Shown: positions 39,410 to 53,708 of the stretch, one piece after another
How positions within the stretch are numbered: the stretch's first letter is position 1
Layout of the letters: each line of letters opens with the position of its first letter
DNA from: Aquificales bacterium
Lineage (GTDB): Bacteria; Aquificota; Aquificia; Aquificales; Aquificaceae
DNA: 58,491 bases
NCBI GenBank assembly: GCA_027037055.1
Contig: JALWBR010000018.1
Location: 37,923-96,413, forward strand
Reading direction: 5' to 3'
Translations under genes and position numbers: made by a program
The notes under the pieces: model-generated
What the model saw: the letters and a program-made list of their open reading frames with translations, nothing else
Told to the model about the DNA's origin: nothing
Database searches by the model: none

Positions 39410-40327
39410 ATGAAATTGGGGAAATCAATGATATTTTTTGTAATAATCCTTGGAACGCTCATAGTAGGTACATTTACTTTTGTCGGCAGTACGGATCTTG
39501 AATACGGTGACCTTGTTTTGGACAGCAAGATAGAAAGCATGAAAAAGGCGGGTGTAAAGCCCGTAGTGTTCCCGCACTGGTTCCATAGGATAAGGTTCAA
39601 GTGTAAGGTGTGCCACGAAGAGATATTTATTCTCAAAAAGGGAGCAAACGATATAACCATGAAAGCAATAATGGAAGGGGAGTTCTGCGGTAAATGTCAC
39701 AACGGTGTAATAGCGTGGGAACCCATCTACTGTGACAGGTGTCACAGATATGAACCCCCCGGTGAAGATAACAAAGTTGTAAAGATAGAAAAAGGTAAGA
39801 AATATGACCCGAATGACCCAAATAATCCCATATACCTCAGCGGTTTAACTAAGAAACTCGCAGGTACGGGTGATCCCAACAAGCCCGCGAGTCAATATTA
39901 CGAAGAAGGGCAAGACTGGCACCCTCAGGTGTTAAGGGAAGCGGGACTTCCCGTTGATAAATACGGTCTCGTTGACTGGGCAAAGGCGGTAAAAGAGGGT
40001 TATATAAATCCGAAGGGAACCCTTGATCCCAACGAGGAAGAGTTCCCCATAATGGATCTTGATATAGTTATTGAAGCAAAAAGTGATTATGTTAACGATG
40101 TAGTATTTCCTCATTGGATACATACTTACTGGCTGAGATGTGATGTTTGTCATCCCAAGATTTTTGTACCCGAAAGGGGTAAGAATCCTATGACAATGGT
40201 AGAGATAGCCCAAGGAAAGTGGTGCGGAAGATGCCACGGAAAGGTCGCATTTCCCCTCACTGAGTGTACAAGATGTCATGTGAAGCCCAAGGAAACCTCC
40301 GCTGCTGAAAACAAAACTCAGGAATAA
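39410..40327 (+). CDS. Hexaheme cytochrome with two c7-type triheme domains
   Basis: A 305-residue protein with an N-terminal hydrophobic signal (IFFVIILGTLIVGTFTF), so it is periplasmic or membrane-tethered. Domain one (about 50-120) has VVFPHWFH, CKVCH, CGKCH and CDRCH. Domain two (about 220-290) has VVFPHWIH, CDVCH, CGRCH and CTRCH. A linker of some 100 residues with DWAKAVKEGYINPKG separates them. It is a close paralogue of the next gene. It probably carries electrons between inner-membrane quinone oxidoreductases and the outer-membrane conduit encoded downstream. Its TAATGG end overlaps the next start. Confidence 0.9.
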   Translation: MKLGKSMIFFVIILGTLIVGTFTFVGSTDLEYGDLVLDSKIESMKKAGVKPVVFPHWFHRIRFKCKVCHEEIFILKKGANDITMKAIMEGEFCGKCHNGVIAWEPIYCDRCHRYEPPGEDNKVVKIEKGKKYDPNDPNNPIYLSGLTKKLAGTGDPNKPASQYYEEGQDWHPQVLREAGLPVDKYGLVDWAKAVKEGYINPKGTLDPNEEEFPIMDLDIVIEAKSDYVNDVVFPHWIHTYWLRCDVCHPKIFVPERGKNPMTMVEIAQGKWCGRCHGKVAFPLTECTRCHVKPKETSAAENKTQE

Positions 40328-41136
40328 TGGTTAGAAAGCTGGGGGTCCTTGTAGCGGGACCCCTCTTATTACTTACTGTTCTAATTTCTTTTGCACCGGG
40401 GGAGGAAGATATATGGGATGTTTATTACAATATCCTGAAGGCTAAAAAAGCTGACCTTCCCCCAGAATACGGTGACATAATAATGAAAAACAAAATAGAA
40501 AGTATGAAAAAAGCAGGTGTCCAACCGGTTATATTCCCTCACTGGTTTCACAGGATAAGGTTTAAATGTAAGGTTTGTCACGAAGACATATTTATTATGA
40601 AGAAGGGAGCTAACGATATAAATATGAAAAAGATAATGGAAGGTCAGTATTGCGGTAAATGTCACAACGGTGTCGTAGCTTGGGAACCCATTTACTGTGA
40701 CAGATGCCACAGATATGATTCTAAAAAAGCACAAAAAGAGCAATATGAAGCCTTAAAAATCCTGCCGAGGGACAAGCTCGGATTTATTGACTGGGCAAAA
40801 GCTGCAAAGGAGGGTCTTATAAAGCCAAAAGGCAAAATATATCCTACTGATCAAGAAGCCATACCGGAACAACCCTTTGACTTGGATGTGGTAATAGTAG
40901 CAAAGGCTGATTTCATGAAAGATGTCGTCTTCCCTCACTGGATACATACCTTCTGGCTCGGTTGTGCCAACTGCCATCCAAAAATATTCATACCTTCCGC
41001 AGGGGCAAACCCCATTTCTATGGTGGAGATATGGCAGGGAAAGTGGTGCGGAAGATGTCACGGAAAGGTCGCATTTCCTACATTTGATTGCACAAGATGT
41101 CATGTAAAGCCGAAAGAAAAAAAGAATAAAAATTAA
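40327..41136 (+). CDS. Hexaheme cytochrome, paralogue of the preceding gene
   Basis: A 269-residue exported protein with the same plan: a signal peptide, triheme domain one (VIFPHWFH, CKVCH, CGKCH, CDRCH), a shorter linker containing DWAKAAKEGLIKPKG, and triheme domain two (VVFPHWIH, CANCH, CGRCH, CTRCH). Near-identity of the heme-bearing segments with the preceding protein shows a tandem duplication. The start ATG shares a base with the upstream TAA stop. Keeping two copies suggests different partners or increased dosage; that is inference. Confidence 0.9.
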   Translation: MVRKLGVLVAGPLLLLTVLISFAPGEEDIWDVYYNILKAKKADLPPEYGDIIMKNKIESMKKAGVQPVIFPHWFHRIRFKCKVCHEDIFIMKKGANDINMKKIMEGQYCGKCHNGVVAWEPIYCDRCHRYDSKKAQKEQYEALKILPRDKLGFIDWAKAAKEGLIKPKGKIYPTDQEAIPEQPFDLDVVIVAKADFMKDVVFPHWIHTFWLGCANCHPKIFIPSAGANPISMVEIWQGKWCGRCHGKVAFPTFDCTRCHVKPKEKKNKN

Positions 41137-41199
41137 AACCATGAGGGTAAAGGAAAGGTTATATAATTATGGTGACAAACAAAAAAGGGGAGCAGGAAA

Positions 41200-42291
41200 A
41201 TGAAAAAATTTGCTTTAATGATAATACCTTTGGCAGGGGCAGTCATATATATCCTGCTTATTAACAATAACAGCATAGCCCAAGACCTTGAAGTTGCTCC
41301 CGATGGACTACCTATAATTAAGGATCTCGGTATGGTTTTCTCCTTTCAAGGAGATGCCCACTTGGCAGCGGAGGTGTGTGCTAATTGCCATCCTGATAGA
41401 TATAAAGAGTATATAAAAAGTCCCCACTTTAACAGGGAAGATCCGAGAGCTCCCATGGCAAAGTTTGATTGTGAAACATGCCACTTTCCGGGAAAAACGG
41501 GTAAACCCCATGTAGCAGCAGGCGGAGGAAGGGGTATAGGCGGTGTTATAAATCCCGCTGCGGAATCCCCCATCCCTGTGGAGGTGAAAAACGAAGTTTG
41601 TCTCCAGTGCCATGCAAGGTTTCCCTTGAGATTACCAAGGATAATGTGGCACGGTAGCATACATGAACAGAAGGGTTTAGCCTGTACAAACTGCCACAGG
41701 ATTCACTACGACGGTCAAGACAATCCCAAGCATCTTAAATTCCCAACCATACCCCAAGTATGCTTTCAATGTCACAAGCAAATAAAAGCACAGGTGGCAA
41801 AACCCTCCCACCATCCCATAAGGGAAGGAAAAGTGGTATGTACGGACTGTCATAACCCCCACGGTGCGGTCTCAGATAGGCTGTTAAATGCCAACCGTAT
41901 AAATGAAAAATGTTACCAATGTCACGCGGAGAAAAGAGGTCCCTTCCTTTGGGAACATCCGCCCGTTGTTGAAAAATGTATAAACTGCCACACACCCCAC
42001 GGATCAAATCACGACAAGTTACTTATAGCAAAAGTACCTTACCTGTGTCAAAGGTGTCATGCAACCGATATTATCCCAAAGAGATGTTCAGATTGCCACG
42101 CAAACAATATAGGTGGCGCACCCAACTTTGATCTTGAACACCCGACGAGACCTTACGGTATTCCTCAAGATAAACTACACCAGTCCATATATGCACATTC
42201 AAACAACAGAATGTTTTATCGTTCCTGTCTAAACTGTCACAATCAGATTCACGGCAGTAACCATCCATCGGGTAAATTCTTCCAGCGTTAA
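41200..42291 (+). CDS. MtrA/DmsE-type multiheme cytochrome with eleven CXXCH motifs
   Basis: A 363-residue periplasmic protein (signal about 1-28). CXXCH motifs start at residues 60, 91, 134, 162, 188, 214, 238, 260, 283, 296 and 343. The order, the paired CTDCHNPHG and CINCHTPHG repeats, and the end CLNCHNQIHGSNHPSGKFF mark the MtrA/PioA/DmsE family, which usually has ten hemes. These proteins form the heme wire inside an outer-membrane barrel. The barrel gene follows after 11 bases. A TATAAT at 41162-41167 may provide an extra promoter, but no -35 is evident. Confidence 0.92.
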   Translation: MKKFALMIIPLAGAVIYILLINNNSIAQDLEVAPDGLPIIKDLGMVFSFQGDAHLAAEVCANCHPDRYKEYIKSPHFNREDPRAPMAKFDCETCHFPGKTGKPHVAAGGGRGIGGVINPAAESPIPVEVKNEVCLQCHARFPLRLPRIMWHGSIHEQKGLACTNCHRIHYDGQDNPKHLKFPTIPQVCFQCHKQIKAQVAKPSHHPIREGKVVCTDCHNPHGAVSDRLLNANRINEKCYQCHAEKRGPFLWEHPPVVEKCINCHTPHGSNHDKLLIAKVPYLCQRCHATDIIPKRCSDCHANNIGGAPNFDLEHPTRPYGIPQDKLHQSIYAHSNNRMFYRSCLNCHNQIHGSNHPSGKFFQR

Positions 42292-42302
42292 GGAGGGATG
42301 GA

Positions 42303-44435
42303 ATGAAAAAAAGCATACTTATGTCCGCCCTACTGAGCTTGGGGGCAGGTGTAGTATTGGCACAGGACAGTACCCTGGATGGCAGTGTAGGAGTTGAGTA
42401 CAGAAATCTTTCGGGAAAGGGAGAAAAGGATTCCGCAAAATTCAATGAATACAGGGATTTAAAGGACGGATTTACCGGCGAGGTAAAGATGAAGTTTAGG
42501 TGGAAAGAAAAAATAGATGTAAGGCTTGATGCTACAAACATAGGTTTAAATGATCAGAAGATCCATCTTCTTTTTAATAAGATAGGACAGTTCAAACTTG
42601 AGGTTATATACGATAAAGTGCCTCATTTATTTTCCAAAAATGTAAGGTTCGGCTTCAGGGGTGTAGGAACAGGTGACCTTAAATGGAACAACGGAAGGAC
42701 ATCTTACATAGATATGGGTTTAATGAGGGATTGGTTAAAGGTTTACTTTGATATCGTTGCCTTTGATCCTCTCCTTAACTTCAGAATAGAATTTATAAAT
42801 GAAAAGAGAAAAGGTACAAGACCCTTTGGAGTTCTTTCTTACTTCGGCGTTGATCCTGTTCAGACAAGCGGTATAAGACACAGCGTAATAGAGGTCCCAG
42901 AACCCATAGACTACGATATTACAGATATAAGATTTATTACTGTCTTCAATTGGAGAAATTTTCAACTATACAGCAGTTATTACTACTCTGAATTCAAGAA
43001 TAACATTCAAGAGCTGAAGTGGGACAACCCCGAACCCAATGGAGCACCAAGGGGACTGCTTGATGTATATCCGAATACAACCCACAATAACATATCCTTT
43101 ACTGGAAACCTCTGGAAATTACCCCTTAACACAAAAATAACGGCGGTTTTCTCTAAGGGGGAATTCGTTCAAAATGATAAACTGCTTCCTTACACAATAA
43201 ACCAAAACGCGTATTCAGGTACACAATATGAGAATAATCCTCCCGATCCACCCGATCCTGGTAAGATGAAGGTGGAATCTACAGTTTATGATTTTACAAT
43301 GGTTTCAACACCGTTAAAGCGATTTGATATTAAATTCCGTCACCGATTTTACGACTGGAACAATAAAACAGCCATAGTTGTATTTCCGGGATATGTTAAG
43401 GTAGATGTCAGATGGCACGAAATACCGGCAATTAACCTCCCACTCAGTTTTAACACAAATACAACATGGCTTGACATGGGATACAGGATAAGCGATTCCA
43501 TGAAGTTATCCCTCGGATATACGATTGATAGAAAGGATAGAAAAATTTATGAGGTAGTTGATCCATCTTATTACTATAAACCTACCGTAAGGGCTGTAAC
43601 ACAATCTGTTGATAGGATATATACCGTTAATTTGGACATAAAACCCATACCTTGGAAGTGGCTTGATATAAGATCTTCCTATATAAGATCGGTTCAGAGG
43701 GGCAGATACAGGGTTGACGATCCTATAGTTTATAAATACTGGAAGTACGATGAAGCGGACAGGGACAGAGACAGATTGCAACTTATAGTAACAATGTTCC
43801 CCATGAAATATCTCGGAATGGCAACCGGTAAGGAAGGATCCTATGAAAAACCCCTCATAATTACGACCCATATAATAGTAGGTAAGGATTCCTTTGTAAA
43901 CTCCCCGGTGGGTCTTCTTGAAGACTCACATATAATCTACGGTATAGATATAGACTATGTTCCCGTAAAAAGGGTAACCCTAAACGCCTATTACCTACAC
44001 GAGGAATTTAAAAACAAGCAAAAAGGTTGGGAGGAACAAGATCCGAATAAGGCTTGGATAGTAGAAGGGATTGACAAGGACAGCACCCTCGGAGTCGGTA
44101 TAAACTTTAAAGTCATACCACAAAAGCTTGATATGGATCTCAAATATGCCTATGCAATGACGGATGGTACAATAAAGCCCTCCGGCTTCGCGGTCCTATC
44201 AATGGTTGATGATTCGGAAAGGCATACCTTAAACCTTAATTTCAAATACAAGGTAAGAAAGTTCTTACATGTAGATCTCGGAGTATTCTGGGAATCCTTC
44301 CGATTCAAGGATTACAATAAAGAAGGATTTGAAAATTATGCTTATGGACAAGACGGTAACTACTTTACGGGCGGAGCACTGATTCAGGATTATAATGTTA
44401 CCATGATATACAGCAAGCTTACCTATAAGTTTTGA
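42303..44435 (+). CDS. MtrB/PioB-type outer-membrane beta-barrel
   Basis: A 710-residue protein with a signal peptide (LLSLGAGVVLAQ) and a long run of alternating amphipathic strands ending in YSKLTYKF, the terminal aromatic of outer-membrane barrels. The opening GSVGVEYRNLSGKGEKDSAKFNEYRDLKDG resembles the MtrB/PioB start, with the family's EYRD-type segment. Such barrels sheathe an MtrA-type heme wire and let electrons cross the outer membrane. No N-terminal CXXC of the Shewanella MtrB kind is present. The SD AAGGAGG precedes the ATG. The last 13 bases overlap the convergent regulator gene. Confidence 0.85.
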   Translation: MKKSILMSALLSLGAGVVLAQDSTLDGSVGVEYRNLSGKGEKDSAKFNEYRDLKDGFTGEVKMKFRWKEKIDVRLDATNIGLNDQKIHLLFNKIGQFKLEVIYDKVPHLFSKNVRFGFRGVGTGDLKWNNGRTSYIDMGLMRDWLKVYFDIVAFDPLLNFRIEFINEKRKGTRPFGVLSYFGVDPVQTSGIRHSVIEVPEPIDYDITDIRFITVFNWRNFQLYSSYYYSEFKNNIQELKWDNPEPNGAPRGLLDVYPNTTHNNISFTGNLWKLPLNTKITAVFSKGEFVQNDKLLPYTINQNAYSGTQYENNPPDPPDPGKMKVESTVYDFTMVSTPLKRFDIKFRHRFYDWNNKTAIVVFPGYVKVDVRWHEIPAINLPLSFNTNTTWLDMGYRISDSMKLSLGYTIDRKDRKIYEVVDPSYYYKPTVRAVTQSVDRIYTVNLDIKPIPWKWLDIRSSYIRSVQRGRYRVDDPIVYKYWKYDEADRDRDRLQLIVTMFPMKYLGMATGKEGSYEKPLIITTHIIVGKDSFVNSPVGLLEDSHIIYGIDIDYVPVKRVTLNAYYLHEEFKNKQKGWEEQDPNKAWIVEGIDKDSTLGVGINFKVIPQKLDMDLKYAYAMTDGTIKPSGFAVLSMVDDSERHTLNLNFKYKVRKFLHVDLGVFWESFRFKDYNKEGFENYAYGQDGNYFTGGALIQDYNVTMIYSKLTYKF

Positions 44436-45772
44436 TGGATGGTTTCCAATTTTCTCCTAAGTGTAAGGCGATTTATACCCAAAAGTTTTGATGCCCTAAG
44501 CTGATTATTACCAGAAAATCTGAAAGCTTCTTCTATAAGTAATTTTTCAACCTCAGCCATCACCTTATCATATATATCCTCCTCACCCATTGAAAGTCTC
44601 ACTTTTATTTCTTCCCTTAAAGTGTCTTTCCAACCCCTCGCTTCCTTAAAGGAATAATGAATCTCCTTAAGATCTGGAATATCCTTAGCGGAAAGTATAT
44701 TCTTTGAAGATAACGCAATAGCCCTTTTAACCACATTCTCAAGTTCTCTAACATTCCCGGGCCAATTATATTCAAGAAGTGTTTCCAAAAACCCCTTAGT
44801 GTAGCCTTTTATCCTTTTGCCGTATTCCTTTGAAAACTTTTTTATCATGCACTCAAGCAATACGGGTATGTCCTCCTTTCTATCCCTCAGGGGAGGCAAA
44901 TATATATGTATAACATTAAGCCTGAAGAATAGATCCTCCCTAAATTTTCCTTCCCTTACCATCGCTTCAAGATCCCTATTGGTAGCTCCTATCACCCTTA
45001 CATCAACAGGAATCTCCTCCTTTCCTCCTATTCTCCTTATCTTCTTCTCTTGCAAAACCCTTAAAAGTTTCGTTTGCACTGATAAGGGCATATCTCCGAG
45101 CTCATCAAGGAAAAGGATACCGTGATTGGCTTCTTCAATTAACCCTTTTTTCCGTGATACAGCCCCGGTAAAAGCACCCTTTTCATATCCGAAAAGTTCC
45201 GCCTCAAAGAGATTCTCCGGTATTGTTGAACAACTTATTGCAACAAAGGGTCCTTGCCATCTCTTTGATAATTTCCATATTGCCCTTGCAAAAAGCTCTT
45301 TACCCGTACCGCTTTCCCCCGTTATAAGAACGGGAACATCAAGGGATGCTGCCTTACCCGCAAGCCTTATTGCTTCTGCCATATTCTTAGGATTTCCGAC
45401 TATGGAACAAAGCTCTTCACACAGATAGCCCTTCGGTATCTCCTCAGAAGAGATCAATGTGTACACCCTTGTTTCCTCAAGAATCCTTAAAGCTTCTTTT
45501 ACCTTCTCATAGACTTCTTCTTCATCAGCAGGAAGATTTATAACATCAAAGAATCCAATACTCATTAACTTCATCGTATAACCCGGAAGTTGAATACCAG
45601 TAAGGGCTATAACAATATTGTCCTCAATAATATCTGGTACAGAAGATAAGCCGAGGGTGTCAACATCAAGCAAGATAACATGTTCACTTATGTCTTCGGG
45701 CACTTCACTGTATTTTTTAATATCCTTTATCTCTAAATCATCAGAAGCACTGCATAAGATAACCCTTTCCAT
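44423..45772 (-). CDS. Sigma-54-dependent transcriptional activator with degenerate receiver
   Basis: A 449-residue NtrC-type activator. Residues 1-115 have a receiver-like layout (ILLDVDTLGL, IVIALTGIQLPGYTM) but no complete acidic pocket, so phosphorylation is doubtful. The AAA+ domain has Walker A GESGTGKE, the sigma-54 contact loop GAFTGA, and Walker B GILFLDELGD. A Fis-type helix-turn-helix (NNQLRASKLLGINRLTLRRK) ends it. The start at ATG 45772 keeps the receiver fold; a TTG at 45793 is an alternative. The gene diverges from the sulfur operon, whose promoter is sigma-54 type, so that operon is the probable target. Confidence 0.9.
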   Translation of the reverse strand: MERVILCSASDDLEIKDIKKYSEVPEDISEHVILLDVDTLGLSSVPDIIEDNIVIALTGIQLPGYTMKLMSIGFFDVINLPADEEEVYEKVKEALRILEETRVYTLISSEEIPKGYLCEELCSIVGNPKNMAEAIRLAGKAASLDVPVLITGESGTGKELFARAIWKLSKRWQGPFVAISCSTIPENLFEAELFGYEKGAFTGAVSRKKGLIEEANHGILFLDELGDMPLSVQTKLLRVLQEKKIRRIGGKEEIPVDVRVIGATNRDLEAMVREGKFREDLFFRLNVIHIYLPPLRDRKEDIPVLLECMIKKFSKEYGKRIKGYTKGFLETLLEYNWPGNVRELENVVKRAIALSSKNILSAKDIPDLKEIHYSFKEARGWKDTLREEIKVRLSMGEEDIYDKVMAEVEKLLIEEAFRFSGNNQLRASKLLGINRLTLRRKLETIHQNL

Positions 45773-45793
45773 CTCCCGAATATGTATATGCAA

Positions 45794-45890: not shown

Positions 45891-45915
45891 ATATCTCAAA
45901 TACGGAGGTGATTCC

Positions 45916-48117
45916 ATGAAGGGCAGGTTATTAAACGCTTCTTGGATTGAAGATGTTGAATACATAAAAAAGCTTGTAGATGGATACATTAAGGGTGAAA
46001 TAGATGAACATCAATTCAAGAAGGAGAGATTAAAAAACGGTATATACGGTCAAAGGCAGAAGGGTTTCTTTATGGTAAGGGTGAAAGTACCCGGAGGTGA
46101 AATAACACCAGAACAGCTTAAAACACTCGCAGAGATAGGAGACAGGTATTCAAACGGTATATTACATATAACAACAAGACAGGATATACAATACCACTGG
46201 GTAAAGCTTGAGGATATACCCCAAGTTGTAGAAATTATAAACGAGTGCGGATTAACAACAAAGGACGCTTGCGGTGATACGGTAAGGAATGTTACCTCAT
46301 GTTACCTTTCTGGAATATGCCCCCTTGAATTAATAAACGCGGGTCAATGTGCAAGGATAACAACGGAGACATTCCTCGGCATATACAGAAACCTACCACG
46401 GAAGTTTAAGATAACCTTCTCCGGTTGTGAAAAGGATTGTGCTTATGCAAGATTCAACGATGTGGGATTAATCGCAACTGTTAAAGAAAATAAACACGGC
46501 TTTAGAGTATATGTAGGAGGAGGGCAGGGAGATACACCGTATATAGGTAATCTCCTGATAGACTTTGTAGAGCCTGAATACATCCCGAGTATAATAAAAG
46601 CGGTACTTGAGGTTTTTAACAAACACGGAGATAGGAAGAACAAAAGGAGAAACAGGCTAAAGTTCCTTATAGAAAGGATAGGATTTGAAGAATTTAAAAA
46701 CCTCTTCTGGGAAGAATACAATAAAATAGCGGAGGAGGTAAAAGACTTTTCTCCAGAAGTTTTCACCCCTCGCGGAGATTTTCCTTTCGGAAATCCCATA
46801 ATTCAAAAGGACGGCAGATATGCCTTAAATATACTTTTAAGAAAGGGCAACATAACCTCACCCGAGGTTGAAACAATTGCGGATATAGGTATAAGGTACT
46901 CCCTAAGCATAAGATTGACCCAGGATCAAAATATACTCCTTTATAACATACCCGAGGAGTATGTTAGTGAAATAAGGAATACACTTACAGCACACGGTTT
47001 TGATCTTGAAGGAGCGGGAAGTATAAGGGATATAGTATGTTGTCCAGGTTCGGAGACATGCAGTCTCGGGATAACTTCTTCACGCGGGGTTACGGAAGCC
47101 ATAGAGAAAATAGTAGATAAATTTTCCCACCTACCCGTAAGGATAAAGATAAGCGGTTGTCCAAACTCATGCGGTCATCACCATATAGCGGATATAGGTC
47201 TTCACGGAGTTGCCAAAAAGATAAACGGAAAACTCGCCCCCCACTATGTTTTTCACTTCGGAGGAACACCCACAAAGATAGGAGAAAGATCCCTCAAGAT
47301 ACCTGCTAAGAATGTGCCTACAGCGATAGAGGATATCCTTAGCTATTATGAAGCACTGAAAAGGGAAGGTGAAACATTTACAGAATTCCTAAGCAGGGTG
47401 GGTGAGAAAGATCTCAGGGGGATCCTTCAAAAGCATCTGCACCTTAGGGAAGGCGTTGACTACTTTAAGGATTTCGGTTCCGATAAGGAGTTCTCCTTAG
47501 AGGAAGTAGGAGTAGGTGAATGTATGGGCATAGTTGCTGATATGGTTGAAACATCAATAAGTGAAGCGGAAAGGATAGTCTCTCAAGCAAAGGCACATAT
47601 TCAGCAAGGATTTGAAGAAGATGCATATGTACACCTTAAAGAAGCCCTTATAGTATTGTGCAAAGGAATGCTTGTACCCTTCGGTGTAAAAGCGGAAGGA
47701 GAGGAAGCCATATTTAAATTTGCTGAACATGTTATAGGAAGAAGGTATATAGATGAAAAATTTTTGAATTTGTTGAAAAAGGAAAATCCATCAGTCGGGG
47801 AGGTTGAAGAGTTCATAAGTGCTTGCAGAAAAGCCTATGAGCTTCTTAAAAGGCAAACAAAAGAGAAATTGGAAAAAGGCATAAAGGATAAAGCAAGAAA
47901 AGAGATAATGGATCTCAGAAATGAAGAATGCCCGTACAACTTCATACTTGCAAAACAAAAAATAGAATCAATGGAGATAGGTTCCGTCCTTGTTGTACTG
48001 CTTAAAGACGAAGAATCAGTAATGAGTGTTTCCGCAAGTATGAGGGATCATGGCCATGAAGTTATAGATGTAGATAAAGAAAATTCCCATTATGTATTGA
48101 CAATAAGGAGGAGGTAG
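45916..48117 (+). CDS. Sulfite (nitrite) reductase with two complete Cys motifs, fused to a TusA-like domain
   Basis: A 733-residue protein. Residues 1-500 are a NirA/Sir-type sirohaem reductase built of two similar halves. The N-terminal half has C129-x5-C135 (CYLSGIC) and C171-x3-C175 (GCEKDC); the C-terminal half has C376-x5-C382 (CPGSETC) and C415-x3-C419 (GCPNSC). Usual enzymes keep the motif only in the second half. Residues about 505-655 are helical. Residues 664-733 match TusA (MDLRNEECP, with C672, then SMEIGSVLVVLL and DHGHEVIDVD). Sulfite is the likely substrate, as APS reductase and ATP sulfurylase genes follow. The ATG at 45916 is supported by its SD and the sigma-54 promoter. 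Confidence 0.88.
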   Translation: MKGRLLNASWIEDVEYIKKLVDGYIKGEIDEHQFKKERLKNGIYGQRQKGFFMVRVKVPGGEITPEQLKTLAEIGDRYSNGILHITTRQDIQYHWVKLEDIPQVVEIINECGLTTKDACGDTVRNVTSCYLSGICPLELINAGQCARITTETFLGIYRNLPRKFKITFSGCEKDCAYARFNDVGLIATVKENKHGFRVYVGGGQGDTPYIGNLLIDFVEPEYIPSIIKAVLEVFNKHGDRKNKRRNRLKFLIERIGFEEFKNLFWEEYNKIAEEVKDFSPEVFTPRGDFPFGNPIIQKDGRYALNILLRKGNITSPEVETIADIGIRYSLSIRLTQDQNILLYNIPEEYVSEIRNTLTAHGFDLEGAGSIRDIVCCPGSETCSLGITSSRGVTEAIEKIVDKFSHLPVRIKISGCPNSCGHHHIADIGLHGVAKKINGKLAPHYVFHFGGTPTKIGERSLKIPAKNVPTAIEDILSYYEALKREGETFTEFLSRVGEKDLRGILQKHLHLREGVDYFKDFGSDKEFSLEEVGVGECMGIVADMVETSISEAERIVSQAKAHIQQGFEEDAYVHLKEALIVLCKGMLVPFGVKAEGEEAIFKFAEHVIGRRYIDEKFLNLLKKENPSVGEVEEFISACRKAYELLKRQTKEKLEKGIKDKARKEIMDLRNEECPYNFILAKQKIESMEIGSVLVVLLKDEESVMSVSASMRDHGHEVIDVDKENSHYVLTIRRR

Positions 48118-48771
48118 ATGGAAGTTAAAGAGATATTAAAAAAGTATATTGAAAAGTTCGGAGAAAAGTCATGTTTCACATGCAGTTTTCAGGTTGAAGA
48201 TGTTGTTATACTTCACATGCTACTTGATATAAAAAGGGATATCCCCGTACTCTTCATAGATACAGGTTATCACTTTGAAGAAGTATATAGGTTTGTTGAT
48301 AGACTTTTAAATGATTGGAACTTTAATCTAAAAGTAATAAAACCTGAGCTGGAAGTAGCGGAATTTGAAAAAAAGTACGGAAAACTTTACAAAAGCAATC
48401 CTGACATGTGTTGTAAATTAAGAAAGGTAGAGCCTTTATTCAAAGAGCTAAGAAACTACAACCTATGGATAACAGGCTTAAGGAGGGAACAATCACCTAC
48501 AAGGGCAAATCTTGAGATAGTTGAAAGGGTAGTCCTGCCAGGCGGTAAAGAAATTGTGAAATTAAATCCGTTGGCTTACTGGACATGGAAAGAGGTATGG
48601 GATTATACTGTTAGAGAAGGGTTACCGTATCTGAGCCTTTACGACGAGGGTTACACAAGTATAGGGTGTGAACCCTGTACTGCACTTCCGGTGAAGAAGG
48701 ACGATCCGAGATCGGGCAGATGGGGAGGTAAGAAGTTAGAATGCGGAATACATACCTTCTATAAGGAATGA
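48118..48771 (+). CDS. cysH: APS reductase (CysH, iron-sulfur type)
   Basis: A 217-residue thioredoxin-dependent reductase that makes sulfite from adenylyl sulfate. The cluster ligands are the CC of DMCCKLRKVEPL and the CxxC of GCEPCTALP, so it is the [4Fe-4S] APS type rather than the PAPS type. WITGLRREQSPTRA binds substrate, and the catalytic cysteine lies in LECGIH at the end. The ATG follows the reductase stop without a gap. Product sulfite would be used by the enzyme encoded just upstream. Confidence 0.94.
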   Translation: MEVKEILKKYIEKFGEKSCFTCSFQVEDVVILHMLLDIKRDIPVLFIDTGYHFEEVYRFVDRLLNDWNFNLKVIKPELEVAEFEKKYGKLYKSNPDMCCKLRKVEPLFKELRNYNLWITGLRREQSPTRANLEIVERVVLPGGKEIVKLNPLAYWTWKEVWDYTVREGLPYLSLYDEGYTSIGCEPCTALPVKKDDPRSGRWGGKKLECGIHTFYKE

Positions 48772-48775
48772 AACC

Positions 48776-49540
48776 ATGGAAATTATCGCAGGCTTGATAA
48801 TAGGCTTACTTATAGGATTAACGGGCATAGGTGCAGGGACAATTACAGCCCCTCTCCTTATAATGGTATGGAATATTGATCCCCCGATCGCTGTGGGAAC
48901 GGCACTCTTTTTTTCAACTGTAGTAAAAGCTGTATCATCCCTCACCTATCTCAAGGCGGGGAATATTGATAAGAAATACATAACAATAATGGCGGGGGGC
49001 GGGATACCAGGCGTGATAGGAGGGTCGTGGCTGATAAATGTTATGGATAAAGATTTCAGATCCTTGGTACTTTTGATTGTGGGACTTATAGTATTAATTT
49101 CATCACTTATCAACATATTTACATGTCTATTCCCCTACAAAGAATACTTCAGTAAATTCGGAGACAAACCGCCCCTTTTTCTGTTGCCCCTAAGTGCCCT
49201 TATAGGATTGGAGGTAGGCTTTACATCCGCAGGTGCGGGCGCCTTAGGAACAGCATTTTTACTCCTATTCACAAAGATGAACATATCAAAGATAATAGGA
49301 ACAGACCTTTCCTTCGGACTTATAATCTCTTTCGTAGGAGCACTGTTACACAGCGGTTACGGAAATATAGAATGGGGCATACTAAAGCTTATGCTGATCG
49401 GCGGTGTTGTAGGCGCACTTATAGGATCCTTCTTAGGAAACAGGTATCCCCGAAATAAACTAAAGCTCGTAGTTTCCCTTATGCTTCTTATTATTGCATC
49501 AAATCTAATCTATAAATCAATAGAAGGAGGTATGATATGA
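48776..49540 (+). CDS. TauE/SafE-family transporter
   Basis: A 254-residue integral membrane protein with about eight hydrophobic helices arranged as two repeats. Family signs are GLTGIGAGTITAPLL near the start and GFTSAGAGALGTAFLLL in the second half. TauE/SafE proteins export sulfite or sulfoacetate, and some import sulfate-type anions. Location between cysH and sat points to a sulfite or sulfate role, but direction is not decidable. It starts 4 bases after cysH and overlaps sat by 4 bases. Confidence 0.9.
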   Translation: MEIIAGLIIGLLIGLTGIGAGTITAPLLIMVWNIDPPIAVGTALFFSTVVKAVSSLTYLKAGNIDKKYITIMAGGGIPGVIGGSWLINVMDKDFRSLVLLIVGLIVLISSLINIFTCLFPYKEYFSKFGDKPPLFLLPLSALIGLEVGFTSAGAGALGTAFLLLFTKMNISKIIGTDLSFGLIISFVGALLHSGYGNIEWGILKLMLIGGVVGALIGSFLGNRYPRNKLKLVVSLMLLIIASNLIYKSIEGGMI

Positions 49541-50697
49541 TTGCGGAGCCTCACGGAGGGAAACTTGTACTCAGAAAAATACCAGACAGTTTCAAGGAAA
49601 CATTTATGGAAGAGGCAACATCTCTTCCCTCAATAACGGTTGATGTTGATACTATACTTGACATGGAAAACATAGCCAAGGGTGTATTTTCCCCACTTGA
49701 AGGTTTTATGACCAGAGAGGAACTTGAGGAAGTAGCCCATAAGATGATGCTCCCGTCCGGAGAAGTATGGACCATACCAATCCTGCTTCAATTGAAGGAA
49801 AAGCCATCATTTTCAAAGGGAGAACGCATAGCCATAAGGGATACCAATCTGAAGATAATAGGTGTCATGGATATTGAGGATGTTTTCAAGATAGATCTTG
49901 AAAGGATCGCCAAAGCGGTATGGGGTACGGATAGCAGGGAACATCCCGGTGTAAGCCTGTTCTATTCAAAGGGTGAGTGGGCTATAGGAGGCAAGATATG
50001 GCTCGTGGAAGAGGCTGACTTTCCCCTCAGAGACTGGGAACTTGAACCTTCAGAGACAAGAAAGATATTTTCATACAGAGGCTGGAAAAAGATAGTCGGT
50101 TTTCAAACGAGGAATGCCCCCCACAGGGCACATGAATATTTACAGAGGCTCGCCCTTGAAATAGGAGACGGCTTATTTATAAACCCCATAATAGGCAGAA
50201 AGAAAAAGGACGATTTTGATTCCGGTTTGATAATAAGGGCTTATGAATTGTTGATAGAAAAATTCTTCCCGAAAGAAAGGGTTATCATGGGAGGACTTGC
50301 AACCTCAATGAGGTATGCGGGACCAAGAGAGGCAGTATTCCACGCCATAATAAGAAAGAATTTCGGATGTACCCACTTCATAGTAGGTAGGGATCACGCG
50401 GGTGTGGGCAACTTTTACGATCCCTTTGAAGCCCACAGGATTTTTGACAAGCTTCCCCAGGACATAGGTATAGAGATAATAAAGGTAGGCAATGTCTTTT
50501 ATTGCTCCGTTTGTGGAGGAATCGCATCCGACAAAACATGCGGACACGGAGATAAATACAGAACTTATGTAAGTATGACAAAGGTAAGAAAGATGCTGAT
50601 GGAAGGAACCATGCCCCCCTTGGAAATGGTAAGACTTGAGATAGCAAAACTTCTTGTAGAATATACGCATAGTAAGATCAAAAGGATGGTTGAATGA
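49537..50697 (+). CDS. sat: ATP sulfurylase (sulfate adenylyltransferase)
   Basis: A 386-residue homo-oligomeric type ATP sulfurylase. The PUA-like N-terminal region is followed by the catalytic part with GFQTRNAPHRAHEYLQ (QTRNxxHxxH), IIGRKKKDDFDSG, GGLATSMRYAGPREAVFHA and FIVGRDHAGVGNFY. A C-terminal cysteine/histidine group (YCSVCGGIASDKTCGHG) may bind zinc, as in bacterial forms of the dissimilatory kind. It makes APS for the upstream reductase, or ATP from APS if run backwards. Its ATG overlaps the transporter stop and its stop overlaps cobO. Confidence 0.95.
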   Translation: MIAEPHGGKLVLRKIPDSFKETFMEEATSLPSITVDVDTILDMENIAKGVFSPLEGFMTREELEEVAHKMMLPSGEVWTIPILLQLKEKPSFSKGERIAIRDTNLKIIGVMDIEDVFKIDLERIAKAVWGTDSREHPGVSLFYSKGEWAIGGKIWLVEEADFPLRDWELEPSETRKIFSYRGWKKIVGFQTRNAPHRAHEYLQRLALEIGDGLFINPIIGRKKKDDFDSGLIIRAYELLIEKFFPKERVIMGGLATSMRYAGPREAVFHAIIRKNFGCTHFIVGRDHAGVGNFYDPFEAHRIFDKLPQDIGIEIIKVGNVFYCSVCGGIASDKTCGHGDKYRTYVSMTKVRKMLMEGTMPPLEMVRLEIAKLLVEYTHSKIKRMVE

Positions 50698-51206
50698 TTC
50701 TCGTTTATACAGGAGACGGGAAAGGTAAGACAGAGGCAGCCTTCGGACTTGCCTTAAGGGCAATAGGCGCGGGATTGAAGGTTGCGGTTGTCCAGTTTAT
50801 AAAGAATGAGGATTGGTTCTCGGGAGAAAGGGAAGCAATAAAAAAATTCAACATTCCTATAGATATATATGTAATGGGTGCAGGCTTTTCGTGGGAAGCT
50901 CCAAAGGGCTTCCCCTCTCACAAAAGGGCGGTGGAAGAGGCATGGGAAAAAAGTAAAGATTTGATGAACTCAGAGGCAGATCTCATTATATGTGACGAAA
51001 TAAATGTCGCTATGTCTCTTAACATGCTTCCGGTTGATGAGGTAGTAGAGTTTATAAAAAATAAAAGAGAAGAGAAACATATATGTTTGACGGGCAGAAA
51101 TGCACCCCAAGAGATAATAAAGATGGCTGATTATGTTACAGATTTCGTTGAAATAAAACACCCGTTTAAGAAAGGTCTAAAGGCTATAAAAGGTATAGAC
51201 TTCTGA
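50694..51206 (+). CDS. cobO: Cob(I)alamin/corrinoid adenosyltransferase (CobO/BtuR)
   Basis: A 170-residue P-loop enzyme that adenosylates corrinoids. It has YTGDGKGKTEAAFGLALRA (P-loop), VVQFIKNEDWFSGE, ICDEINVAM and CLTGRNAPQEII, the standard CobA/BtuR order. It overlaps sat by 4 bases and so shares the sigma-54 operon. A cobalamin gene in a sulfur operon is odd. A shared tetrapyrrole precursor with siroheme, used by the reductase, is one possible reason, although this enzyme works after that branch point. Confidence 0.93.
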   Translation: MILVYTGDGKGKTEAAFGLALRAIGAGLKVAVVQFIKNEDWFSGEREAIKKFNIPIDIYVMGAGFSWEAPKGFPSHKRAVEEAWEKSKDLMNSEADLIICDEINVAMSLNMLPVDEVVEFIKNKREEKHICLTGRNAPQEIIKMADYVTDFVEIKHPFKKGLKAIKGIDF

Positions 51207-52418: not shown

Positions 52419-53708
52419 ATGGAAAAGCTTAGGTTCCTTCTGAGTTTGGTTGCGCTAACCACACTTTTCATATTTTATGATCTGTCTTACGGCGTTCCGT
52501 CTTTTGCGAGGCAAACGGGTTTCTCCTGCAGTACATGTCATACCATACCCCCGAGGCTGAACAAATTCGGAACCCTTTATAAGATAAGCGGTTATACATC
52601 GGGTGTTAATATAAAACAGATTGATATAGGCGACGGTAAAACATTAAATAATTTCAATCCAATTGCAATAAGGGTTATTTCCCTGCTATCCGAAAAGAAA
52701 TCCTACAAAGATGAAGCAGAAACCCTCAAAGTAGAAAATGTTCTTATATACTTTGCGGGTAAGGTAAGTGATGATGTAGGAGCATTCATAGTCCCGAATC
52801 TTGAAGCTTCTGGAGATCACGGCTATGAGGCGGGCGTTCATGTTGCAAGATTGGCTTTTGTAAAAGACACTGGAGCCAATGTATTCGGTATAGTGGGCGG
52901 TATAACAAGCCCCGCAGGTGTTGATCCATTCAACACCCTTGATCCCATGAGAACAGAAATGTTCCCCGTTCAAGCGCCGATGCCCTACTTTATGTCCATG
53001 GATGCAAACGGTGACGGGCAGGCTGAACAAATGGATATGGGTTCTATGATGCTCTTCCCCTCTTTGTATGGTCACGACCAAAAGGGTATTTCAGCTTATG
53101 CACTTATAAAGAGTATGGTCTATGTTAATGCGGGTATATATACAGGTGGTGGTGGAACCGTTATGGAAAACATGAAGGCGGAAGAGCTTGCGGGAGGCGA
53201 TTTTGACTTTTACGGAAGGATAGCCTTCATGCCGAATTTGAAGGTGGCTGATGTCAATGTTGGTATATTCGGTTATTCGGGAAGGGATAAGATCCATGAT
53301 TCTGGAGAAAATAAAAATGTCAGCTCCTACGGAATTGATATAGGAGTGCAGGCACCGATAACTTCTTCCCTGATGGCTGAGCTTCTTGCAAACTATACAA
53401 CAGGAAAAATAGGAGAGGATGAAGCAAGCGGTTATCAGTTATGGGGAACCCTTTACTTCAAAAGAATGATTGCCCTGACCCTCGGCTACGGTGCAAGTGA
53501 TAGCACCCTTATGAATATGAACGCTATGGGTAGCAATCCCGAAATGAGAATGGGAGGTAAACAAAGCGGTATAACCGCCCATATCTCCTATGCATTCAGA
53601 CCGAATGTTAGATTCGGTGTTGAATACTCCTCCGTAAATACGGAGTTCAGCGGAACAGATTACGAAAACATAAACTCCACAGCCCTACTCCTTGATCTTG
53701 ATTTCTAA
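52419..53708 (+). CDS. Cyc2-like fused monoheme cytochrome / outer-membrane porin
   Basis: A 429-residue protein with a signal peptide (about 1-25) followed at once by a heme motif, FSCSTCH (C37, C40, H41), in the context FARQTGFSCSTCH...LNKFGTLYKISGY. This is very like the N-terminus of Cyc2 iron oxidases, where FARQTG, CXXCH and FG..FK..GY are conserved. The remaining 370 residues form a beta-barrel ending LLLDLDF. Cyc2 takes electrons from Fe(II) at the cell surface. Two Met-rich loops (MDMGSMM; MNMNAMG...MRMGG) and a calcium-like DANGDGQAE are unusual. Function by similarity, not proven. Confidence 0.75.
   Translation: MEKLRFLLSLVALTTLFIFYDLSYGVPSFARQTGFSCSTCHTIPPRLNKFGTLYKISGYTSGVNIKQIDIGDGKTLNNFNPIAIRVISLLSEKKSYKDEAETLKVENVLIYFAGKVSDDVGAFIVPNLEASGDHGYEAGVHVARLAFVKDTGANVFGIVGGITSPAGVDPFNTLDPMRTEMFPVQAPMPYFMSMDANGDGQAEQMDMGSMMLFPSLYGHDQKGISAYALIKSMVYVNAGIYTGGGGTVMENMKAEELAGGDFDFYGRIAFMPNLKVADVNVGIFGYSGRDKIHDSGENKNVSSYGIDIGVQAPITSSLMAELLANYTTGKIGEDEASGYQLWGTLYFKRMIALTLGYGASDSTLMNMNAMGSNPEMRMGGKQSGITAHISYAFRPNVRFGVEYSSVNTEFSGTDYENINSTALLLDLDF

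Follow-up and report, generated by a model that had tools for sequence, protein, structure and literature searches.

The window, by which we mean the whole stretch of 58,491 nucleotides analysed here, comes from a heat-loving vent bacterium and contains the gene of a two-half siroheme sulfite reductase (SiR) extended by a HEPN-like region and a TusA domain (Table 1). The reading frame begins with the ATG at 45916, preceded by a Shine-Dalgarno sequence, GGAGGTG, at 45904. The Pfam families NIR_SIR and NIR_SIR_ferr each match the protein twice, in A-B-A-B order and above their cut-offs (205.8 and 131.1 bits for the two reductase domains, two stretches each), and the protein belongs to the two-half assimilatory nitrite/sulfite reductase superfamily. 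An initial annotation had assigned positions 45916–47440 to a sulfite reductase, which covers the reductase core, but the reading frame runs on to 48117, with the HEPN-like region and TusA lying beyond the core. Counted from the ATG, all eight cysteines that it had read as a siroheme/[4Fe-4S] motif in each half are at the residues it gave, and the distances agree as well, with 36 residues from C135 to C171 and 33 from C382 to C415.

The SiR gene heads an operon of the order SiR-cysH-TauE-sat, followed by cobO/btuR, in which the genes run in the same direction and mostly overlap or abut; sat, cysH and SiR are adjacent on one strand, as in an operon for assimilatory sulfate reduction. On a plasmid of Thermus oshimai a similar run, with genes for making siroheme, consists of SiR, hemD-like, cysG-like, cysH, TauE, cobA and sat, and in a second Aquificota family SiR lies near cysH and TauE, in one case also near sat and cobA. 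Elsewhere in its own genome the bacterium encodes a uroporphyrinogen-III methyltransferase (SUMT) and a Met8-like protein. A search for cysJ gave no match in this genome while control genomes gave matches, so the enzyme does not conform to an NADPH-dependent CysIJ system. The operon points to sulfite rather than nitrite as the substrate, and apart from SiR the genome also encodes a NirB-like protein in which the N half lacks such a set of cysteines. The enzyme probably serves to reduce sulfite for assimilation, drawing on a small electron carrier.

The putative sigma-54 promoter of the SiR gene has its GG-N10-GC core at the same place in two congeners (L005 and L007) and in the second-family orthologues L075 and L077; the element is missing upstream of SiR in the third congener (L006) and in L076 and L079, two relatives in which SiR directly follows sat. 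The divergent neighbour encodes an NtrC-type activator, in which no receiver domain was found, and a sigma-54 activator gene is also near SiR in L075 and L077, both of which have the site. Rfam gave no element near the SiR gene. Just upstream, at 39410–44435, are two genes for cytochromes of the multihaem c7 type, one for a cytochrome with about 11 CxxCH motifs and one for an MtrB/PioB porin (E 3e-71); together they may form a conduit for electrons across the outer membrane. An open reading frame at 52419–53708 encodes 429 residues with one CxxCH near the N terminus and no Pfam match.

Table 1. Features at the sulfite reductase locus; positions are those of the window.
Feature	Position	Strand	Basis or remark
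NtrC-family sigma-54 activator, divergent neighbour of SiR	44423..45793	-	Pfam Sigma54_activat + HTH_8
Putative sigma-54 promoter, TTGGCATGTTAAATGCAA	45874..45891	+	40 nt 5' of the SiR ATG
Two-half siroheme sulfite reductase + HEPN-like region + TusA	45916..48117	+	733 aa ORF
N-terminal half, residues 38-270, with predicted sulfite-contacting R88/R124/K163/K165	46027..46725	+	hhalign N vs C half; panel conservation
N-half C129-x5-C135 (CYLSGIC)	46300..46320	+	
N-half C171-x3-C175 (CEKDC)	46426..46440	+	
N-half Cys codons	C129 46300-46302; C135 46318-46320; C171 46426-46428; C175 46438-46440		
C-terminal half, residues 288-505, canonical siroheme-coupled [4Fe-4S] site	46777..47430	+	Pfam, hhalign
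C-half C376-x5-C382 (CPGSETC)	47041..47061	+	Cys in 100/100 panel proteins
C-half C415-x3-C419 (CPNSC)	47158..47172	+	Cys in 100/100 panel proteins
C-half Cys codons	C376 47041-47043; C382 47059-47061; C415 47158-47160; C419 47170-47172		
Cys536 in GEC(A/M/G) tail after the core	47521..47523	+	16/19 tetrad proteins
HEPN-like helical region, about residues 540-655	47533..47880	+	weak Pfam HEPN
TusA sulfur-carrier domain, residues 665-732	47908..48111	+	Pfam PF01206 E 4.6e-17
cysH, APS/PAPS reductase, both CC pairs, APS type by motif	48118..48771	+	PF01507 E 7e-51; NCBIfam PRK02090 + cysH above cut-off
TauE/SafE-type exporter	48776..49540	+	PF01925 E 9e-44
sat, ATP sulfurylase	49537..50697	+	PF01747 + PF14306; NCBIfam PRK04149 above cut-off
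cobO/btuR corrinoid adenosyltransferase, overlaps the operon end	50694..51206	+	PF02572 E 3e-59

When the profiles of the two halves of SiR are aligned with each other by hhalign (probability 99.9, E 2.2e-31), C129 pairs with C376, C135 with C382, C171 with C415 and C175 with C419. All four are in register, which settles in favour of the initial annotation the objection it had itself raised, namely that the N-half cysteines might be displaced from the cluster site. Given the cysteine frequency of the protein (16/733), the chance of finding cysteine at four given sites is about 2e-7, and on these sequence comparisons a chance origin of the N-half tetrad is excluded. After the C-half tetrad, the columns richest in cysteine among the 464 core columns of 101 relatives are 171, 175, 129 and 135, together with 119.

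In the alignments R88, R124, K163 and K165 of the N half are the equivalents of the sulfite-contacting residues of E. coli CysI (1AOP), which we take to be R83, R153, K215 and K217. R88 and R124 are present in all 101 proteins of the panel described below, and K163 in 100 of them. AlphaFold2, given five sequences (the window SiR, three congeners and one contig of a viral collection), returned a pLDDT of 55.5 for the full length and 58.3 for the core only, lowest in the cysteine loops and too low for usable models; a scan of the viral collection for further alignable SiR relatives found none.

The NirA/Sir-type enzymes (M. tuberculosis NirA, 1zj8; spinach NiR, 2akj; maize SiR, 5h8v; E. coli CysI, 1aop) have the same A-B-A-B order and share with the window SiR the C-half CX5CXnCX3C motif and the N-half R/R/K/K catalytic set, and phmmer relates it to 1zj8 with E 5e-49 and to 1aop with E 2e-24. 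By residue counting, C119 (in an ACG motif) and Y44 presumably correspond to the Cys161-Tyr69 pair of NirA. Unlike the window SiR, however, these enzymes lack C129, C135, C171 and C175 as well as the HEPN-like region and TusA. Because its NCBIfam scores all fall below the cut-offs (PRK09567, 243 of 523 bits; PRK09566, 238 of 594; PRK13504, 231 of 457; TIGR02041, 166 of 757; TIGR02042, 171 of 732), the window SiR lies outside the named NirA, CysI and Sir equivalogs, and its N half bears the cluster cysteines that are absent from the characterised single-cluster subset.

DsrAB is similar in layout, not in membership: there too the cluster motif is found in both homologous halves, that of DsrB in the form CXnCCX3C. 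But DsrAB consists of two chains with inserted ferredoxin domains (CMFC/CMHC-type inserts in the DsrA/B pairs compared), whereas the window SiR is one chain in an assimilatory operon, has no Pfam Fer4 match, and scores below the Dsr cut-offs (dsrA 75.6 of 393 bits, dsrB 90 of 342 bits). As judged from these features it is an assimilatory two-half enzyme, not a Dsr. The idea that it bridges assimilatory and dissimilatory enzymes survives only as an analogy with DsrA and DsrB, since sequence, operon and the missing ferredoxin insert are all assimilatory. Fsr (F420-dependent sulfite reductase) and AsrC have the same fold and the same CX5CXnCX3C motif, Fsr having one SiR unit per chain together with ferredoxin and F420 modules.

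Full-length orthologues of the window SiR occur in four species of its genus (87–95% identical over the full length), and a fragment from one other Aquificota genus (54% identical) has the complete N-half tetrad. Orthologues of the same architecture in a second Aquificota family, the Hydrogenothermaceae-like family f2 (L038–L047; SiR plus TusA, 45–50% identical, adjoining cysH-TauE), keep C135, C170 and C171, with S129 and S175; the three cysteines are invariant there, and the N half resembles the CXnCC of DsrB minus its last cysteine. Our first searches suggested that the tetrad was unique to the window's genus or to Aquificota. This was overturned by a wider sample of 391 genomes across bacteria, in which 14 other genomes from 13 further family groups each added a full-tetrad protein; in two of the 14 the second N-half pair takes the variant form Cx2C. 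The final panel comprises 101 two-half proteins with scorable N halves, 100 of which cover the C half. In this panel, a convenience sample with biased plasmid records, the full N-half tetrad is found in 19 proteins from about 15 families, C129, C171 and C175 alone in 32, one, two or an odd set of N-half cysteines in 22 and none in 28, while the C-half tetrad is invariant. The rule, invoked in the initial annotation, that known monomeric enzymes retain only the C-terminal set thus holds for the solved and characterised ones (in our alignments the N-half cysteines are missing from both E. coli CysI and M. tuberculosis NirA), but the double set is no peculiarity of this protein. According to a 2023 structural paper, assimilatory SiRs kept just one siroheme-[4Fe-4S] site (PMC10229431), and as a generalisation about loss of the N-half site this is contradicted by the predicted double-set proteins. 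A search of the open-access literature, to which it was confined, found no report of fused SiRs with two cluster sites.

The three-cysteine group includes haloarchaea, Planctomyces, Nonomuraea and Aquificaceae fusions. Its haloarchaeal member from Haloferax mediterranei, the Fd-NiR, is a two-half enzyme with D at position 135; it is described as a siroheme and Fe-S enzyme in a review that does not give the stoichiometry (PMC2483277). We considered C119 as a stand-in fourth ligand in this group and rejected it: it also occurs in proteins without the other cysteines, and it matches the position of the NirA Cys-Tyr pair.

The N-half cysteines tend to be kept or lost together. In raw counts that ignore kinship, C175 accompanies C129 in 52 of 54 proteins but occurs in just 5 of the 48 that lack C129, and 19 tetrads are seen against 6.4 expected from the column frequencies if the positions were independent. 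On a tree of 85 proteins, built without the cysteine columns under test, C129 and C175 change in the same way in an average of 7.5 of 8 independent pairs and never in opposite ways (median p 0.008); on a smaller, more careful tree of 53 proteins they change together in 5.1 of 6 pairs (p 0.06). Between the window and three congeners, moreover, the codons of C129, C171 and C175 differ only synonymously. Joint loss and synonymous-only change are what a shared ligand role would predict.

All tetrad proteins of the 53-protein tree fall in one clade of 37 proteins (support 100/99), where several separate branches bear the tetrad, and where it is wholly or partly lost in rhizobial/Acinetobacter-type, Bacteroidota, Thermus and second-family Aquificota proteins. 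The root of this tree was not inferred, and counting alone does not separate gain from loss. However, retention is the simpler reading because the same four cysteine positions are found in DsrA and in single units of the Fsr type. The tetrad therefore looks ancestral in the clade and repeatedly lost, and the "ancestral-like form" of the initial annotation is borne out to this extent, with the tetrad at the base of the clade and several separate losses above it.

The reading we hold to be probable, if only with modest confidence, is an assimilatory enzyme with one catalytic siroheme, served by the C-half cluster, and a further [4Fe-4S] cluster, in the N half, that takes no part in catalysis. 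Sat would make APS, from which CysH would free sulfite, and SiR would reduce this sulfite in the last step of sulfate assimilation with electrons probably from ferredoxin. Catalysis would take place at one classical site, a siroheme coupled to the cluster of C376, C382, C415 and C419, with the sulfite held by R88, R124, K163 and K165 if these act as their counterparts in E. coli CysI do. The N half would bind its cluster through C129, C135, C171 and C175, presumably inherited from the duplicated ancestral gene. Such a cluster may be structural or relay electrons, and most likely has no working siroheme of its own. We know of no characterised precedent for a siroheme-free cluster at the N-half position.

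In two-half enzymes the halves cooperate by a pseudo-twofold logic, the C-half cluster working with N-half residues, all of which are present. A catalytic N-half cluster would in turn have to work with C-half residues, and these are half missing. The half-versus-half alignment gives D337, R371, P407 and R409 as the counterparts of R88, R124, K163 and K165, and no position of the four is conserved among the tetrad proteins: D, R, E, N, Q, P and S are all seen at 337, Arg occupies 371 in 6 of the 19, and Lys never occurs at 407. Catalysis at two siroheme sites in each chain, the "two functional sites" of the initial annotation, is thus poorly supported and in our view very improbable, even though each half has its full cysteine set and R371 occupies the E. 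coli R153 position in three of four congeners. R371 was also considered as proof of a second active site in its own right and rejected, as it is Lys in one congener, varies among the tetrad proteins and is present in relatives without N-half cysteines. The main rival to a siroheme-free N-half cluster is an arrangement like that of DsrA within one chain: a complete siroheme-[4Fe-4S], or sirohydrochlorin, would sit in the N half without taking part in catalysis, which would be left to the C half. None of the four ligand positions has been lost and their spacing matches, R371 and R409 provide two of the four basic equivalents in the window's genus, and DsrA bears a structural siroheme despite being inactive (PMC10229431). 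Nevertheless, this arrangement is disfavoured and seems rather unlikely, because a three-residue deletion removes the C-half equivalent of the LPRK clamp, whereas both an R (TSRNN) and an LPxK element can still be recognised in DsrB; the R83 equivalent is an aspartate, D337, and neither feature is conserved in the tetrad class.

The N-half cysteines might also bind no cluster, as a decaying relic or in another role (disulfide, zinc or redox sensing). Many relatives indeed lack one to four of them and remain in the enzyme class, and the sister orthologues keep just C135 and C171, plus C170. But a decaying set would hardly give the observed excess of complete tetrads, the joint loss on the tree, or residues preserved under synonymous codon change between congeners, and we regard this explanation as unlikely. 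A siroheme-free, non-catalytic N-half cluster beside a single catalytic site remains the reading that we prefer.

Beyond the core, the chain of several shorter relatives, including that of Thermus, stops one or two residues past the GEC cysteine. A GECA tail like that of the window SiR was noted in L050, L086, L113 and L116 and recalls the C-terminal arm of DsrC. The HEPN match is below the cut-off in the window SiR (E 0.024) and clearer in relatives, down to E 4e-7. TusA scores 62 bits against a cut-off of 28.6, with its N-terminal Cys672 in CPYN instead of CPxP, and is found in 14 of 28 scanned class members, the window SiR included; the open-access literature that was searched reports no SiR-TusA fusion. 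Other fusions were seen as well: L014, L026 and related Aquificaceae loci encode SiR, ThiS and CysH in a single chain of about 890 residues with three N-half cysteines, and L100 (1135 aa) joins a tetrad SiR to a pyridine-nucleotide oxidoreductase that bears Fer4 domains and may supply the enzyme with electrons.

The GEC tail and the fused TusA invite the speculation that sulfur is handed over internally in a manner reminiscent of DsrC. The sulfur formed, be it sulfide or sulfane sulfur, might conceivably pass to Cys536 and Cys672. Taken further, the widespread class could be a single-chain counterpart of DsrAB-DsrC, with a DsrA-type N-half site, a catalytic C half, and the GEC cysteine and sulfur-carrier domain (here TusA) drawing partly reduced sulfur from the siroheme so that no free sulfide is released; we judge this quite unlikely. 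According to a 2026 paper, what assimilatory SiRs directly produce is zero-valent sulfur (PMC13188885), and the recurrent sulfur-carrier fusions, TusA here and ThiS with CysH in the Aquificaceae relatives, bear on that claim.

In the accepted view assimilatory SiRs arose by duplication and fusion, and the N-half cluster was lost (PMC10229431). Present-day enzymes of many bacterial families nevertheless keep both cysteine sets, and such double-set SiRs allow the role of the second site and the origin of the asymmetric modern active site to be tested. The class is of clear interest to specialists, and its predicted second cluster is directly testable.
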